Positions 4,239-22,624 of a DNA stretch of 42,243 bases are shown here, in pieces. The stretch is from Ruminococcus sp. Lineage in GTDB: Bacteria > Bacillota > Clostridia > Oscillospirales > Ruminococcaceae. A program made the translations under genes and the position numbers. A model generated the notes under the pieces. That model searched no databases. It worked only from the letters and a program-made list of their open reading frames with translations, and was not told where the DNA came from. Location: the NCBI GenBank assembly GCA_017622925.1, contig JAGAQC010000023.1, positions 1 to 42,243 on the forward strand, given 5' to 3'. Position 1 is the first letter of the stretch; each line of letters opens with the position of its first letter.

Positions 4239-6278
4239 ATGAAGCGGAAAATGATTGGTGCGGCGGCAGCCTATATGTTCGGATTGTTTTTCGCTTCATT
4301 CTTTTTTGATAAATTCGGGGCTGTCATGACGGTCTGCGCCGCTCTGCTTACTGCGGTGTACGGGATAATAAAGAGGTTCAGCAGGGCTGATCATATTTTG
4401 ATAGTGTTTTCATTTGCGGCGGCGGTAACGGTAAATCGGCTGTATACCGAGCTTTGCTACGACAAAATAGTTTCATATGCAGGAAGCTGCGGCAGTTTTT
4501 GCGGCGAGGTTACCGACTACGACATTTATGACGGCGACCTTGCTTCATATGTTCTTAAAGGCAAAATAAACGATACTCAGAAAGCCGAGATAACCCTGCT
4601 GACAAATGAGCTTGACGCTGATTACGGCGATATACTGTCAATTGAAAGCTGTAACTTCAAAGAGTTCGAGAGCGATTACCTCTTTGACAGCAAGCTGTGG
4701 AATAAGTCCCGTCATATTTATCTTGAAGCGGACAAAATCGAGAGGCTGACCGTCACAAAGACCGACTCTGCAAAATTACGCCGTGTTTTGTCGGACTTTC
4801 GTGAACATATGGTATCGGAGCTGCGTGTGGAAATGGGCAGCGAAACGGGCGGCTTTCTGTCGGGAATGCTGTTCGGCGAAAAGCAGTACATGGAGGACAA
4901 CGTCCGCACCTCGCTTTACAGAACGGGAATCGGTCACATTTTGGCAGTTTCGGGACTTCATGTATCAATAATTGCAGCCGTTTTTATGCGGCTTATGAAG
5001 TCTGCGCGAATAAATAAATATATTCGGTTCGGCGTTGTAAACTGTATTATTGCGCTTTTGATAATGACGGCAAATTATCCAATATCGGCAATACGCGCCG
5101 CCCTCATGCTCGATATGATGTATTCGGCGGAGCTTTTCGGACAGCAGAACGATTCGTTTAATTCATTGAGCATCTCGGCGTTGGCAATTTGCCTTTGCGA
5201 CCCTTACGCCGTTTACAGCAGCGGCTTTATACTGTCGCTTTCGGGTACGTTTGGAATTGCGGTTTTTTCTCCGTATATGTCCGAAAAGTTCGATTCGGAC
5301 ACGTTATTCGGAAAGCTCGGCGGAATAGTATCGGCGGCGGTTTGTACGTCGTTAGCGGTAATGCCTGCTTCTGTTTATTATTTTGACGAAACATCGCTTA
5401 TTGCTCCTCTTGCAAATATTCTGCTCGTTCCGTTGTGTACGGTGTCAATGATACTTGGTCTTATATTTATTTTGACGGGCGGAATTTTTTCGGAGTTACT
5501 CATACCTGCGGAAATGATGCTTACTGCTGTGCTGAAAATTGCCGATATTACGTCGTCTGTAGGAGCTTTCAGCTTGCCGCAAACCTGTCGGTATATGCCC
5601 GTGCTGTTTTTCACATCGGCAGCGTTGACTGTATTTATATATCTTTTTAGCGGAAAGCGGTCGGCTGTAGCGGTAACCGTTGCAGCGGCAATTGCTTTGA
5701 ATTTTACGGCTGCTGCGGTTTTTCGGAAATATCGGGACGATCGGCTGACCGTTGCGGTTCTTGGCAAATCGGGTCAATGCGCCGCAGTAATATCTTACGA
5801 CGGTAGAACGATCGTTGCAGACCTGAGCGGACACAACAAAACAGCCGCATATGTAAAAAAGTACCTGACGGAAAACGGCTTCGCTGATGTGGATTCGCTT
5901 ATTCTGAATACGGCTGCGCAGTCGCAGTATTCTGTCTATATTGACGAGCTGAAATACTTTCCACCGAATAATGTATACGTAAGCGGAACTGAAATTATCG
6001 GCGGAAAGTCCGAGAGCTTCGGCGAAAAAGGCATGTCCGCACGCATTGGCGAATATGATCTGGAGCTTAGCGATAACGTGCTTACGCTCTCCGTCGGCGA
6101 AACTGAGCTGCTTTTGCTATCGGCGGCTCACGAATACGAGGAACAAGCTGAAATAACGGTATATTGGGGTAAAACCAAACCCGAGGAAAGACGGGACGGC
6201 TGTATATATCTTACGGATATAAACAATTTTGAAATATTATTCGAGATGGACGGAGAGTACGGTATAAGGAGATTATAA
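4239..6278 (+). CDS. comEC: ComEC/Rec2 competence DNA channel with degenerate C-terminal metallo-beta-lactamase domain
   Basis: A 679-residue polytopic membrane protein. Order: two N-terminal membrane segments, an OB-like DUF4131 region (about 80-190), the Competence domain with the signature GIGHILAVSGLHVSII, several further membrane helices, and a C-terminal region from about 500. ComEC carries single-stranded DNA across the membrane in transformation. The C-terminal domain normally has VGQGD and HxHxDH metal motifs; here the matching stretches read GKSGQC and NTAAQSQ, so the expected metal ligands are gone. ATG 4239 has no clear ribosome binding site, and ATG 4251 is an alternative start. 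The stop overlaps the holA start (TAATG). Confidence 0.9.
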   Translation: MKRKMIGAAAAYMFGLFFASFFFDKFGAVMTVCAALLTAVYGIIKRFSRADHILIVFSFAAAVTVNRLYTELCYDKIVSYAGSCGSFCGEVTDYDIYDGDLASYVLKGKINDTQKAEITLLTNELDADYGDILSIESCNFKEFESDYLFDSKLWNKSRHIYLEADKIERLTVTKTDSAKLRRVLSDFREHMVSELRVEMGSETGGFLSGMLFGEKQYMEDNVRTSLYRTGIGHILAVSGLHVSIIAAVFMRLMKSARINKYIRFGVVNCIIALLIMTANYPISAIRAALMLDMMYSAELFGQQNDSFNSLSISALAICLCDPYAVYSSGFILSLSGTFGIAVFSPYMSEKFDSDTLFGKLGGIVSAAVCTSLAVMPASVYYFDETSLIAPLANILLVPLCTVSMILGLIFILTGGIFSELLIPAEMMLTAVLKIADITSSVGAFSLPQTCRYMPVLFFTSAALTVFIYLFSGKRSAVAVTVAAAIALNFTAAAVFRKYRDDRLTVAVLGKSGQCAAVISYDGRTIVADLSGHNKTAAYVKKYLTENGFADVDSLILNTAAQSQYSVYIDELKYFPPNNVYVSGTEIIGGKSESFGEKGMSARIGEYDLELSDNVLTLSVGETELLLLSAAHEYEEQAEITVYWGKTKPEERRDGCIYLTDINNFEILFEMDGEYGIRRL

Positions 6279-12697: not shown

Positions 12698-12726
12698 TTG
12701 AATTACTTTCGGAAATATGTTATAAT
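12698..12726 (+). promoter_or_regulatory. sigma-A promoter of the TetM-Rae1 fusion gene
   Basis: TTGAAT (12698-12703), a 17-bp spacer, TATAAT (12721-12726). The leader is about 50 nt to the ATG at 12783, with AAGGAA as ribosome binding site. There is no long leader-peptide region of the kind that controls tetM by attenuation. Confidence 0.75.
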
Positions 12727-12782
12727 TACTTTAAATATTCAAAACAGAAAAAACGACTTATCGGATAAAAGAAGGAATTGCA

Positions 12783-15350
12783 ATGAAGAATTTGATATTG
12801 GGTATCACGGCTCACGTAGATTCGGGAAAAACCACTCTTGCGGAGGCTATGCTGTATAAGACGGGGACGATACGCAAAATAGGACGTGTTGACTTCGGCA
12901 GCTCGTTTCTTGATACAAATCAAATAGAGCGTGATAAGGGTATCACGATATTTGCAGGACAGGCAGAGCTTACTCACGGAGATACACGGTTCACCCTGTT
13001 GGACACTCCGGGACATGTGGACTTTTCTGCCGAAACCGAGCGTACCATGCAGGTTCTTGATTATGCCGTACTTGTAATAAGCGGTACAGACGGTGTGCAG
13101 AGCCATACTTCTACACTTTGGAAGCTGCTTATGCGTTACGAAGTGCCTGTGTTTATATTCGTTAATAAAATGGACTTAACAGGTGCGGACAGACTTGCGG
13201 TTTTGGATAACATCAGAAAACGTCTTTCTCAGAACTGTACCGATTTTTCAGAAGCTGACATGATCTCGGAAAATGCCGCAGCTTGTGACGAAGAACTTAT
13301 GGATATTTTTTTGGAGACAGGAGATCTTCCCGATGCTGCGCTGATACGTGCTGTCGCAGAAAGAAGGGTATTCCCGTGTTTTTTCGGTTCTGCGCTGAAA
13401 ATGGAGGGAATCTCCGAGCTGCTTGACGGTCTTGACAGATTTACAGAGTGTAAAGAGTTTTCGGAAACATTCGGAGCGAAGGTCTATAAAATTTCCTACG
13501 ACAGTAAGGGAACTCGTCTTACTCATATGAAGATTTTGGGCGGACAGCTTAAAGTGCGTTCGGAGCTTTCATATAAAACCGCTGACGGCGAAGAAATAGC
13601 GGAAAAAGTCAGTTCCATAAGATTTTATTCGGGAGAAAAATTCCGAACTGCCGAAGTTGCAATGGCAGGGGAGGTATGCACGGTAACGGGACTTGAAGCA
13701 ACTTATTCAGGGCAGGGAATAGGCTGTATCCCTAATTCCGAGCGTGTCGTCCTCGAGCCTGTTATGACGTATCAGGTCATACTGCCTGCGGATAAAAATG
13801 TTTTTGAAGCGTTGAAAGAGCTTCGGCAGCTTGAAGATGAAGATCCTCAGCTTCACATAGTTTGGAATGAACAGCTAAGGCAGATACATATACAGCTTAT
13901 GGGAGCTGTCCAACTGGAGGTACTGAGCCTTATAATAGCCGAAAGATTCGGATATGAGCCGATTTTCGGCAGCGGAGCGGTCGCCTATAAGGAGACTATC
14001 GCCAACGTGGTGGAGGGAGCAGGTCATTACGAGCCGCTGCGACATTATGCGGAAGTTCACCTTATACTTGAACCTCTGCCGAGGGGCAGCGGACTTGTAT
14101 TTGATACGATCGTCCATGAGGACGAGCTTGACCGCAACTGGCAGCGGCTTATTCTCACTCATCTGGAGGAAAAGGTTCATATCGGGACGCTTACGGGGTC
14201 GCCGATAACCGATATGAAAATAACTCTTGCGGCGGGCAAGGCTCACTTAAAGCATACCGAGGGAGGAGATTTCCGTCAGGCAACATACCGTGCCGTCCGT
14301 CATGGACTGAGACAGGCTGAGAGCGTTCTTCTTGAACCGTTTTACGACTATGAGCTTGAGGTTCCGCAGGAGTGCGTTGGTCGCGCCATTTCCGATCTAC
14401 AGCGTATGTCGGCGGACTTTGAACCTCCCGAAATATCAGGTGATACGGCTGTTATCAGAGGGTGTGCGCCTGTATCGGAAATGAACGATTATGTTTCGGA
14501 GGTTATCGGATTTACACGGGGCAGGGGACGGCTGACCTGCGTGAACGGCGGTTTTCGTGAATGCCATAATGCGGAGGAGGTAATAGCTTCAATTGCCTAC
14601 GACCCTGACGGAGATACGGAAAACACCGCAGATTCGGTATTTTGCAGTCATGGTGCAGGTATGAATGTAAACTGGAAAGATGCGGCGGAACATATGCACC
14701 TTCCAAGCTGTCTGCGTTCAGAATCCGAGACTCCCGAGGACAGCAAGAAAGTCAGAAAAAACGCCTCAAAAGTCGTTTCAGAGGAAGAACTTATGGAAAT
14801 ATTCGAGCGAACCTACGGCAAGACGGACAAGGAGCCGAGAAAGGCGTTCAAGTCCGCAAAGGTGAAAAAAGATTATTCAAGGCCCGTAACGCTCCCCGAA
14901 TATGACGGTCCTGACTATTTGCTTGTAGACGGTTACAACATAATTTTTGCTTGGGACGAACTGAAAAAAATCGCCGCCGCCGACCTTGACGCAGCAAGAG
15001 CGGAACTTGTTAAAATAATGAGCAATTATCAGGGCGTGTCGGGGTACGAAATAATTGTGGTTTTTGACGCATACAGGGTCAAGGGCAAGCATCGGGAGAC
15101 TGAAAAGCACTTTAATATCAGCGTGGTTTACACAAAAGAGGCGGAGACTGCGGACAGCTATATAGAACGGGTCACTCATGAGCTGTCAAAGAAACACAGA
15201 GTTCGTGTTGCAACTTCGGACGGTATCGAGCAGATGATAATATTGGGCAGCGGAGCTATGAGAATGTCGGCTAACGAGCTGAAAAAGCGTGTATCTGATA
15301 CTGAAAACGATCTGAGAGAGTTTATGGAAAATCAGAGTCTGCTCACATAA
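12783..15350 (+). CDS. TetM-like ribosomal GTPase fused to a C-terminal Rae1/YacP NYN ribonuclease domain
   Basis: 855 residues in two parts. Residues 1 to about 640 form an EF-G-like GTPase of the TetM/TetW ribosomal-protection type: G1 AHVDSGKTT (10-18), G2 RDKGITI, G3 DTPGH (74-78), G4 NKMD (128-131), then domains II-V including the LLEPFYDYELEVPQE block. After a charged linker (about 640-705), residues about 710-855 match Rae1/YacP, a ribosome-dependent mRNA endonuclease of Bacillus: LLVDGYNIIFAW with Asp716, VVFDAYRVKG, YTKEAETAD with Asp791, and VATSDGIEQ. Both parts look intact. It stands alone under its own promoter. I infer a factor that enters the A site and cleaves or rescues; tetracycline resistance is possible but unproven. 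Confidence 0.9.
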   Translation: MKNLILGITAHVDSGKTTLAEAMLYKTGTIRKIGRVDFGSSFLDTNQIERDKGITIFAGQAELTHGDTRFTLLDTPGHVDFSAETERTMQVLDYAVLVISGTDGVQSHTSTLWKLLMRYEVPVFIFVNKMDLTGADRLAVLDNIRKRLSQNCTDFSEADMISENAAACDEELMDIFLETGDLPDAALIRAVAERRVFPCFFGSALKMEGISELLDGLDRFTECKEFSETFGAKVYKISYDSKGTRLTHMKILGGQLKVRSELSYKTADGEEIAEKVSSIRFYSGEKFRTAEVAMAGEVCTVTGLEATYSGQGIGCIPNSERVVLEPVMTYQVILPADKNVFEALKELRQLEDEDPQLHIVWNEQLRQIHIQLMGAVQLEVLSLIIAERFGYEPIFGSGAVAYKETIANVVEGAGHYEPLRHYAEVHLILEPLPRGSGLVFDTIVHEDELDRNWQRLILTHLEEKVHIGTLTGSPITDMKITLAAGKAHLKHTEGGDFRQATYRAVRHGLRQAESVLLEPFYDYELEVPQECVGRAISDLQRMSADFEPPEISGDTAVIRGCAPVSEMNDYVSEVIGFTRGRGRLTCVNGGFRECHNAEEVIASIAYDPDGDTENTADSVFCSHGAGMNVNWKDAAEHMHLPSCLRSESETPEDSKKVRKNASKVVSEEELMEIFERTYGKTDKEPRKAFKSAKVKKDYSRPVTLPEYDGPDYLLVDGYNIIFAWDELKKIAAADLDAARAELVKIMSNYQGVSGYEIIVVFDAYRVKGKHRETEKHFNISVVYTKEAETADSYIERVTHELSKKHRVRVATSDGIEQMIILGSGAMRMSANELKKRVSDTENDLREFMENQSLLT

Positions 15351-20694: not shown

Positions 20695-20937
20695 ATGAAA
20701 GTAACAGTATGTATAGGCAGCTCATGCCACCTGAAAGGCTCTCGTCAGGTGGTGGAGCAGCTCCAGCACCTGATCGGTATGAATGATCTGAAAGATTCCG
20801 TAGAGCTTGGCGGTACGTTCTGCATGGGCAAATGTCAGCAGGGCGTATGCGTTTCCGTAGACGATAAATGCTTCTCGGTAACGCCAGAGACCGTCGGCGA
20901 ATTTTTCAGGACCGAAATTCTTGAAAAACTTACATAA
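20695..20937 (+). CDS. small [2Fe-2S] thioredoxin-like ferredoxin
   Basis: 80 residues resembling the NuoE/HydC-type thioredoxin-like [2Fe-2S] domain. Cys6 and Cys11 (CIGSSC) and Cys43 and Cys47 (CMGKC) give the C-x4-C...C-x3-C ligand set. It should act as a small electron carrier in the cytoplasm, most likely serving HydS or HydA2. ACGGAGG precedes the ATG. Its stop overlaps the ribosome binding site of hydS, so the two are coupled. Confidence 0.9.
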   Translation: MKVTVCIGSSCHLKGSRQVVEQLQHLIGMNDLKDSVELGGTFCMGKCQQGVCVSVDDKCFSVTPETVGEFFRTEILEKLT

Positions 20938-20950
20938 GGGAGTGCGCACG

Positions 20951-22624
20951 ATGTCAGACTACCTGAAACTTAAAAAATCCAACTGTAAAAACTGCTATAA
21001 ATGTATCCGTCATTGTCCCGTGAAATCAATTCGTTTTTCGGGAAATCAGGCTCATATCATCGGAGATGAGTGCATTCTCTGCGGACAATGCTTTGTGGTA
21101 TGTCCTCAGAATGCCAAGGAGATAGTTGACGATACGGAAAAGGTAAAGGTTCTCATGCAGGATAGTCCTGTTGTTGTTAGTCTTGCGCCGTCCTTTGCGG
21201 CTAATTACAACGGCGTAGGCATCGGAGCAATGACCGAGGCTCTGAAACAACTGGGATTCCATGCGGTCGAGGAAACTGCGATAGGCGCGACTATGGTCAA
21301 AACGGAATACGAGCGCATGATCAATGAAGAAAACCGTGATGTGGTAATTTCTTCTTGCTGCCATTCCGTAAATCTGCTTATTCAGAAATATTTTCCAACG
21401 GCTCTGCCGTATCTTGCGGACGTTTTGTCGCCCATGCAGGCTCATTGTTCCGACCTGAAAAAACGCTATCCTGCGGCAAAAACGGTGTTTATCGGACCGT
21501 GCGTTTCCAAAAAGGACGAAGCAGGCAGATATAAGGGAACGGTTGACGCCGTATTGACCTTCGAGGAGCTTTCCGCATGGCTTAAAGCCGAAAATATCGA
21601 GCTGAAAGAAGTTCCCGACAGCGAGGAAAAAAGCCGTGCGAGATTTTTCCCCACAACAGGCGGAATCCTCAAAACTATGGCGTGCAATAATCCCAAATAT
21701 ACATATATGGCTGTAGACGGTGTGGAGAACTGTATTGCCGCGCTGAAAGAGATCGAGAGCGGTAATATCAAAAACTGCTTCATAGAAATGTCAGCCTGTG
21801 TGGGAAGCTGCGTGGGCGGTCCTGTTATGGAAAAGCGTCATCGTTCGCCTATCCGCGATTATTCGGCAATTGCGAGATTTGCAGGTAAGCTGGATTTTGA
21901 TGTGGATATGCCCGAGTCGGAGGAGATCAGGAGACCATTTGAAATGATCGACCGCAATATCCGACAGCCCTCCGAGAGTGAGATAGCCGCTATTCTTCGT
22001 CAGATGGGCAAGATAAAGCAGTCCGACGAGCTGAACTGCGGTTCGTGCGGCTACAATACCTGCCGTGAAAAAGCGATCGCTATATATCAGGGCAAGGCGG
22101 AGATCTCAATGTGCCTGCCTTTCCTGAAAGACAAAGCCGAGAGCTTTTCGGACAACGTGGTGAACAATACTCCCAACGGACTTATTGTTCTTAACGAGAG
22201 CCTTGAAGTTCAGCAGATAAACAATGCCGCAAGAAAGATCATGAATATCCGCTATGCTTCCGATGTTCTTGGAGAACAGGTGATCCGTATCCTTGACCCT
22301 GCCGTTTTCTTAGAAGTTCTCAACGGCGGAAAAGATGTGCGTGATCGGCGTATCTACCTTGCGGAATACAAAAAATATGTTGAACAGTCTGTTATATACG
22401 ACAAGGAATATCATCTGCTTATCTGCATTATGAGCGATGTTACCGACGAGGAAACAGAACGTGAGAAGAAAGAAAATATCAGCCGTCAGACTGTTGAGAT
22501 CGCTGATAAGGTCGTAGACAAGCAGATGCGCATCGTTCAGGAAATAGCGTCGCTTTTAGGTGAAACTGCGGCTGAAACGAAGATCGCGCTTTCCAAATTA
22601 AAGGAGAGTATCGCAGATGAATAA
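20951..22624 (+). CDS. hydS: putative H2-sensing [FeFe]-hydrogenase with PAS domain
   Basis: 557 residues. Two [4Fe-4S] sites come first (Cys12, 15, 18, 22 and Cys41, 44, 47, 51). The H-cluster domain follows: L1 SSCCHSVN (Cys136, 137), L2 GPCVSKKDE (Cys184), L3 EMSACVGSCVGG (Cys283, 287). Then comes a CGSCGYNTC Fe-S motif, a PAS domain (about 405-510, NTPNGLIVLNESLEVQQINNA) and a helical tail. This layout is that of group C sensory hydrogenases (HydS). ATG 20951 is preferred over 20921 because AAGGGAG lies 9 nt before it and the protein then starts just ahead of the first cluster. The PP2C gene overlaps its stop, pointing to a sensor-phosphatase pair. Confidence 0.93.
   Translation: MSDYLKLKKSNCKNCYKCIRHCPVKSIRFSGNQAHIIGDECILCGQCFVVCPQNAKEIVDDTEKVKVLMQDSPVVVSLAPSFAANYNGVGIGAMTEALKQLGFHAVEETAIGATMVKTEYERMINEENRDVVISSCCHSVNLLIQKYFPTALPYLADVLSPMQAHCSDLKKRYPAAKTVFIGPCVSKKDEAGRYKGTVDAVLTFEELSAWLKAENIELKEVPDSEEKSRARFFPTTGGILKTMACNNPKYTYMAVDGVENCIAALKEIESGNIKNCFIEMSACVGSCVGGPVMEKRHRSPIRDYSAIARFAGKLDFDVDMPESEEIRRPFEMIDRNIRQPSESEIAAILRQMGKIKQSDELNCGSCGYNTCREKAIAIYQGKAEISMCLPFLKDKAESFSDNVVNNTPNGLIVLNESLEVQQINNAARKIMNIRYASDVLGEQVIRILDPAVFLEVLNGGKDVRDRRIYLAEYKKYVEQSVIYDKEYHLLICIMSDVTDEETEREKKENISRQTVEIADKVVDKQMRIVQEIASLLGETAAETKIALSKLKESIADE

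Follow-up and report, generated by a model that had tools for sequence, protein, structure and literature searches.

The window, a stretch of 42,243 nucleotides (contig JAGAQC010000023.1, positions 1 to 42,243, assembly GCA_017622925.1) from a gut Ruminococcus relative, carries on its forward strand at 12783..15350 a gene in which an EF-G-type translational GTPase is fused to a nuclease domain of the Rae1/YacP type. The gene was delimited by translation and Pfam searches as a single frame of 855 residues plus stop, with an ATG start and its sole stop at the end. The uninterrupted frame claimed in an earlier reading of the DNA (the sequence-only reading) was thereby borne out, and the GTPase and NYN motifs quoted in it were found in place, namely AHVDSGKTT (residues 10-18), DTPGH (74-78), NKMD (128-131), LLVDGYNIIFAW (713-724), YTKEAETAD (783-791) and VATSDGIEQ (809-817). 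Pfam matches over the cut-off were obtained for GTP_EFTU (1.5e-49), EFG_IV (4.5e-18), EFG_C (9.8e-17) and NYN_YacP (6.1e-50, residues 713-851), and those for EFG_III and EF-G_D2 (domains II and III) were slightly below the curated cut-offs. With these GTPase motifs and the EF-G domain order (I-V), the protein was assigned to the EF2-type translational GTPase superfamily.

All parts of the protein are encoded on the forward strand. The G domain (residues 1-219, 12783..13439; PF00009) includes G1 (10-18), G3 (74-78) and G4 (128-131), which were aligned with the corresponding motifs of relatives, of a TetM-type protein and of EF-G, and is followed by domains II and III (about residues 225-395, 13455..13967), placed by the sub-cut-off Pfam matches and a structure model. 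Domain IV (residues 398-512, 13974..14318; Pfam) is the most conserved domain, identity to the window protein, averaged across 59 relatives, being 75% for domain IV, 58% for the G domain, 56% for NYN and 23% for the linker. Its tip, loop III (HLKHTEGGDFR, residues 488-498, 14244..14276), was recognised as a subfamily signature by alignments and motif counts. Domain V (residues 515-597, 14325..14573; PF00679) is followed by a C-terminal extension (residues 598-640, 14574..14702) with the pattern SVFCSHGAG...W...MH, which forms a hairpin plus helix in the structure model and is also found in unfused relatives. The variable, mostly disordered linker (residues 641-710, 14703..14912) contains one helix ending in a TYG motif (667-679); the predicted local distance difference test score (pLDDT) is below 50 at 647-667 and 678-703, and the length between the equivalents of residues 639 and 714 ranges from 66 to 150 residues among fused proteins. 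The NYN_YacP nuclease domain (residues 711-848, 14913..15326), delimited by Pfam, alignments and the model, bears D716, N719, D762, D791 and D813. With a linker pLDDT below 50, the position of NYN relative to the GTPase in the model cannot be trusted, and the structure search says little about the NYN fold because the GTPase dominated it.

The nuclease domain matched NYN_YacP (PF05991) with 169.9 bits against a cut-off of 24.6 and was aligned with chain 5mq8 from a solved structure of B. subtilis YacP (1e-28), which confirms the Rae1/YacP kinship proposed in the sequence-only reading. In this alignment, D716, N719, D762, D791 and D813 correspond to D7, N10, D53, D81 and D104 of B. subtilis YacP; by homology, we take these residues to be metal-binding and catalytic. 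None of the 140 fused rows, which represent 139 distinct sequences, had lost any of the five; the set was likewise complete in all 22 rows with a stand-alone label, among which L210 and L212 are pieces of fused genes. With its putative catalytic residues kept, the fused nuclease looks active. It shares the homologous NYN domain and these residues with B. subtilis Rae1/YacP (PDB 5mq8, 5mq9), which is a stand-alone protein, whereas the window protein is a fusion. The window NYN covers positions 1-143 of the 166 in the Pfam model and lacks the last 23 or so; other fused lines retain this end (for example G500, 1-165). In three papers (PMC6613710, PMC10100781, PMC12320835), Rae1 is described as a ribosome-dependent A-site endonuclease with messenger RNA (mRNA) as its substrate, and in PMC11780869 S1025 is named as the first of its substrates to be characterised.

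The GTPase half stands apart from both Tet proteins and EF-G. Against the NCBIfam models NF012153 and NF033148, the window protein reached 410 of the 775 bits required for tet_protect and 265.4 of the 1100 bits required for the TetM/W/O/S model and thus failed both, and it also failed the EF-G equivalog model TIGR00484 (293.2 of 659.4 bits). As a control, L002 of the same genome passed both tet models (831.9 and 1246.6 bits) and fell short of the narrower Tet(M) model, so that a TetM/W-type gene is present in the window genome in addition to the fusion; an EF-G-like gene of its own (L004) is present as well. A profile of the fused GTPase core gave 597 to 1007 bits for unfused relatives and 532 bits for the distant member G451, compared with 377-380 bits for two TetM-type genes and 446-456 bits for two other EF-G-like genes. 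L002 itself lies on a small contig (L227, G000:C22, 4288-6219) with a SPOUT methyltransferase-like frame nearby.

Motif counts were made over 135 fused and 17 unfused members, the latter including the GTPase half of the split gene L210, with the distant G451 (L209) counted apart. An HTxGGDF-like domain IV tip was present in 132 fused and all 17 unfused members, and the extension motif FCxxG in 128 and 17, respectively; G451 has no extension motif. The Tet-type loop III SPVSTPAD was found in none of the 135 fused or 17 unfused members, and the window protein has KHTEGGDF instead. According to Atkinson 2015 (PMC4342817), the domain IV loops of Tet proteins dislodge tetracycline; the different and strictly kept tip therefore argues for another task. 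TetM, TetO and TetW resemble the window protein in the EF-G fold, at about 30% identity for the TetM-type gene of the same genome, but differ from it in the domain IV tip, the C-terminus, the tet-model scores and the added nuclease. EF-G shares domains I-V and the GTPase motifs, whereas the window protein fails the EF-G model, has a shorter loop I and carries another loop III. Judged by sequence, this GTPase constitutes a distinct subfamily that is marked by a particular domain IV tip and C-terminal motif and also includes unfused members, and the designation 'TetM-like' in the sequence-only reading holds for the fold and not for the subfamily.

Among 119 genomes from the family of the window genome, the fusion was found whole in 48, 47 times in one open frame and once (G111) with one in-frame TGA. 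NYN_YacP matches over the cut-off were obtained in 52 of the 119, all at places of the fusion gene, namely in these 48 and in four genomes that carry it in pieces (G007, G008, G039, G012). The gene appears split over contigs in G007 and G008, and in G039, a 64%-complete assembly, GTPase and NYN occupy two adjacent, overlapping frames (L210, G039:C30, 1980-4672), which may reflect either a genuine gene split or a frameshift. Single-contig genomes of other families carry the fusion too (for example G232, G334, G468, G500). When the two-domain architecture was searched for in 398 sampled genomes of the phylum, the GTPase was detected at E 1e-110 or better in 35; 28 of these, spread over 13 families, carry the fusion (25 as judged from the match, and G249, G386 and G478 after fetching), and seven, including the distant G451, are unfused. 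A scan of named genomes returned at least 599 stretches, 590 of them encoding a relative, and the best 80 loci included Ruminococcus flavefaciens FD-1, Lachnospiraceae, Intestinimonas, Anaerovorax and Fusibacter.

Some fused genes were met in mobile or unusual contexts. In G012 the gene (L216, G012:C33, 3791-14947) is broken near codon 598 by a mobile element of about 11 kb, which encodes a relaxase, MobC/NikA-like and RepA_N proteins and a large serine recombinase and also bears a TetM-type gene scoring above an NCBIfam cut-off. Two unannotated 'Bacteriophage sp.' records from human faeces, MT835563.1 and MT835514.1, contain near full-length fused homologues (54% and 49%), which may be either prophage cargo or host DNA. 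In an Agathobacter rectalis plasmid record (L219), a CopG/BrnT toxin-antitoxin pair (5313-5821) adjoins the fused gene.

No second NYN match was found in the 28 fused genomes of the phylum sample, each of which has exactly one, and no NYN over the cut-off lay outside the fusion gene or its pieces in the 119 family genomes, where the sole extra match (G094) was under the cut-off at 20 bits. The guess in the sequence-only reading that fusion genomes lack a stand-alone yacP was supported in both samples. Among the 363 phylum-sample genomes without the GTPase, 183 have NYN over the cut-off (215 NYN-positive genomes minus 28 fused and minus 4 with both as separate genes), and a few of these 'separate' NYNs may be fused to a more distant GTPase. 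Among the matches listed, the NYN frames read fell into two length classes, about 840-940 and about 170-300 residues. In the window genome (assembly 87.8% complete), the single NYN match is the one in the fusion, and the best rlmB-like gene (L226, 3965-4789) is followed by an unrelated frame of 835 residues and not by yacP. A stand-alone NYN (L186) of G510 lies in a run read from translations as cysS-mrnC-rlmB-yacP-sigH, a place after rlmB not being a defining feature of the NYN domain. From these gene contents, the fusion appears to replace stand-alone Rae1.

In a NYN tree of 70 rows, all 48 fused rows were on one side of one starred branch together with L210, L212 and L186, three rows labelled stand-alone that are a split gene, a contig fragment and an operon copy, respectively; when L210 and L212 are added to the fused rows, a branch at only 71/80 sets them apart. 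In the GTPase tree, a single clade of 50 fused-like rows was not rejected by the approximately unbiased test (p-AU 0.758). A single fusion event is the simplest, though not a proven, reading of these trees. A loss of NYN in the unfused members L197 and L217, which had first been placed inside the fused clade, is at most a possibility, the tree with the fused-like rows together having the higher likelihood at this p-AU. Unfused members of other families (for example G424 and G320) and of the window's own family branched outside, so the GTPase probably existed before the fusion.

Our preferred interpretation, to which we assign about an even chance, is that the protein is a chromosomal translation factor, a ribosome-acting GTPase of its own subfamily whose tethered Rae1-type NYN cuts A-site mRNA on stalled ribosomes. 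What the sequences themselves show are the domains, the intact GTPase motifs and nuclease residues, the subfamily-specific tip and the fact that fused genomes have no second NYN. EF-G-type GTPases insert domain IV into the A site, and by analogy with the known families the EF-G-fold GTPase would bind the ribosome and place the specialised tip of its domain IV in the decoding site, while the NYN on its variable linker would cut the mRNA at or beside the A site. We further propose, as conjecture, that the GTPase may test the A site of a slow or stalled ribosome and that hydrolysis of guanosine triphosphate (GTP) may release domain IV, so that the tethered nuclease takes its place. The coupling of GTP-driven A-site entry to mRNA cleavage put forward in the sequence-only reading is likewise conjectural. 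The truncated complex might then be cleared by trans-translation, in which SmpB and transfer-messenger RNA (tmRNA), both of which are present, could rescue the ribosome. As domain IV and Rae1 share the A-site target, where there is presumably no room for both, any coupling must be sequential or use the long linker, and a sequential hand-over would be possible because the linker is long and disordered.

A more specific version, in which the protein is a one-polypeptide no-go-decay machine whose dedicated GTPase samples the A site by means of its own domain IV tip and hands it to the tethered Rae1 after GTP hydrolysis, so that cleavage is gated by both GTP and the state of the ribosome, must be regarded as rather doubtful. 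If it is true, stand-alone Rae1 would act likewise without the gate. In eukaryotic no-go decay (Hbs1/Dom34 plus a nuclease), a translational GTPase likewise acts together with an mRNA endonuclease where ribosomes have stalled; separate and unrelated proteins are used there, against one polypeptide here, and the comparison is an analogy only. A natural fusion that is widespread in Clostridia and seemingly replaces Rae1 makes both the targeting of stalled ribosomes by Rae1 and GTPase-gated cleavage directly testable.

Several observations weigh against the preferred interpretation. Domain IV and a docked Rae1 would presumably compete for the same A site, and three fused proteins (L089, L090 and L094) lack domain IV loop I, loop III and FCxxG and keep the nuclease residues. 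Of the unfused GTPases, all 9 in the family sample and 3 of the 7 in the phylum sample come from genomes devoid of NYN, so that the GTPase can do without the nuclease, and no association was seen between an unfused GTPase and a separate NYN (4 of 7 genomes, vs 183 of 363 without the GTPase). Neither part is present in 58 of the 119 family genomes. Over 81 loci with flanks, the largest common neighbour cluster comprised 9 loci, and as none was shared more widely, the fusion looks like a self-contained gene.

The GTPases without NYN, the absence of co-occurrence and the tip-less fused proteins make an uncoupled tether a serious rival. It would join two ribosome factors, an ordinary Rae1 and a GTPase with a separate role, and serve only to keep the nuclease near ribosomes; we consider it possible, though on the unlikely side. 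The existence of unfused GTPases (9 of the 119 family genomes, 7 of the 398 phylum genomes) and the long, variable and disordered linker agree with it, whereas the lack of a second NYN in all 28 fused genomes and the retention of the fused form in 13 families argue against it.

It is less probable again that the protein is a ribosome maturation factor whose GTPase checks the state of the 70S ribosome or a subunit and whose NYN trims ribosomal RNA (rRNA) or transfer RNA (tRNA). A role of NYN in rRNA or tRNA maturation has been proposed (cited in PMC4342817), and the gene run around L186 would fit it; against this stand the description of Rae1 as a ribosome-dependent mRNA endonuclease in the papers mentioned above, the domain IV retained with a strictly conserved tip, and the family genomes with neither part.

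The fusion itself is not new. In Atkinson 2015 (PMC4342817), the same architecture, an EF-G-type GTPase followed by a YacP-like NYN, is reported for Tet proteins of ten Clostridiales species, with the suggestion that rRNA is cleaved. The sequence-only reading had named no functional study, and none of the fusion was found in the literature searched, which did not cover the main Rae1 papers. The fusions are filed under the Tet subfamily in the 2015 paper, whereas here they form a separate subfamily with unfused kin and occur where stand-alone Rae1 is missing. The separation from Tet, the unfused relatives, the absence of Rae1 and the tip and extension motifs were not found in the literature searched, outside of which the main Rae1 papers lie. 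A tetracycline resistance protein to which the RNase adds a new resistance mechanism, as suggested in 2015, is very improbable: the fusion is below the tet-model cut-offs, whereas L002 passes both, SPVSTPAD is absent throughout, and 2 of 20 listed plasmid records, one of them fused, are labelled 'translation factor GTPase family protein'. By these sequence features it is not a tetracycline-protection protein, and the resistance reading was rejected. A TetM/TetW/TetO/TetS annotation is thus attached to some genes, fused in Agathobacter and unfused in Ligilactobacillus, that belong to a different, probably housekeeping, factor, a point of relevance to resistance surveys. One unfused member, on the 242 kb plasmid pMP118 of Ligilactobacillus salivarius (L217, 4986-6920), adjoins rpsN and is annotated as a TetM-family resistance protein, yet it is below the cut-offs of the tet models listed.

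A frameshift or assembly artefact joining two genes, to which the two adjacent frames in G039 might point, has a negligible probability and is refuted by the 47 family genomes (of 119) in which the gene is a single open frame and by the single-contig genomes elsewhere, so that the fusion stands.

Upstream of the fusion gene, a sigma-70-like promoter match (TTGAAT-17-TATAAT, with TG before the -10 element) was located by a consensus scan at 12698..12726 on the forward strand (10/12); the scan of the region gave 12 matches vs 5.8 expected in shuffles, and a match is no proof of function. A Shine-Dalgarno-like AAGGA was read in the sequence at 12772..12776 on the same strand, 6 bases 5′ of the ATG. 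No Rfam element in the window scored over its gathering score. The fusion gene is flanked upstream by a YunB-like sporulation gene on the opposite strand and downstream by GNAT, LysR and AdhE-like genes. Elsewhere in the window, 20921-22621 encodes a protein resembling iron-only hydrogenases, in which ferredoxin domains and a weak match to PAS were noted and which is possibly a sensory hydrogenase.
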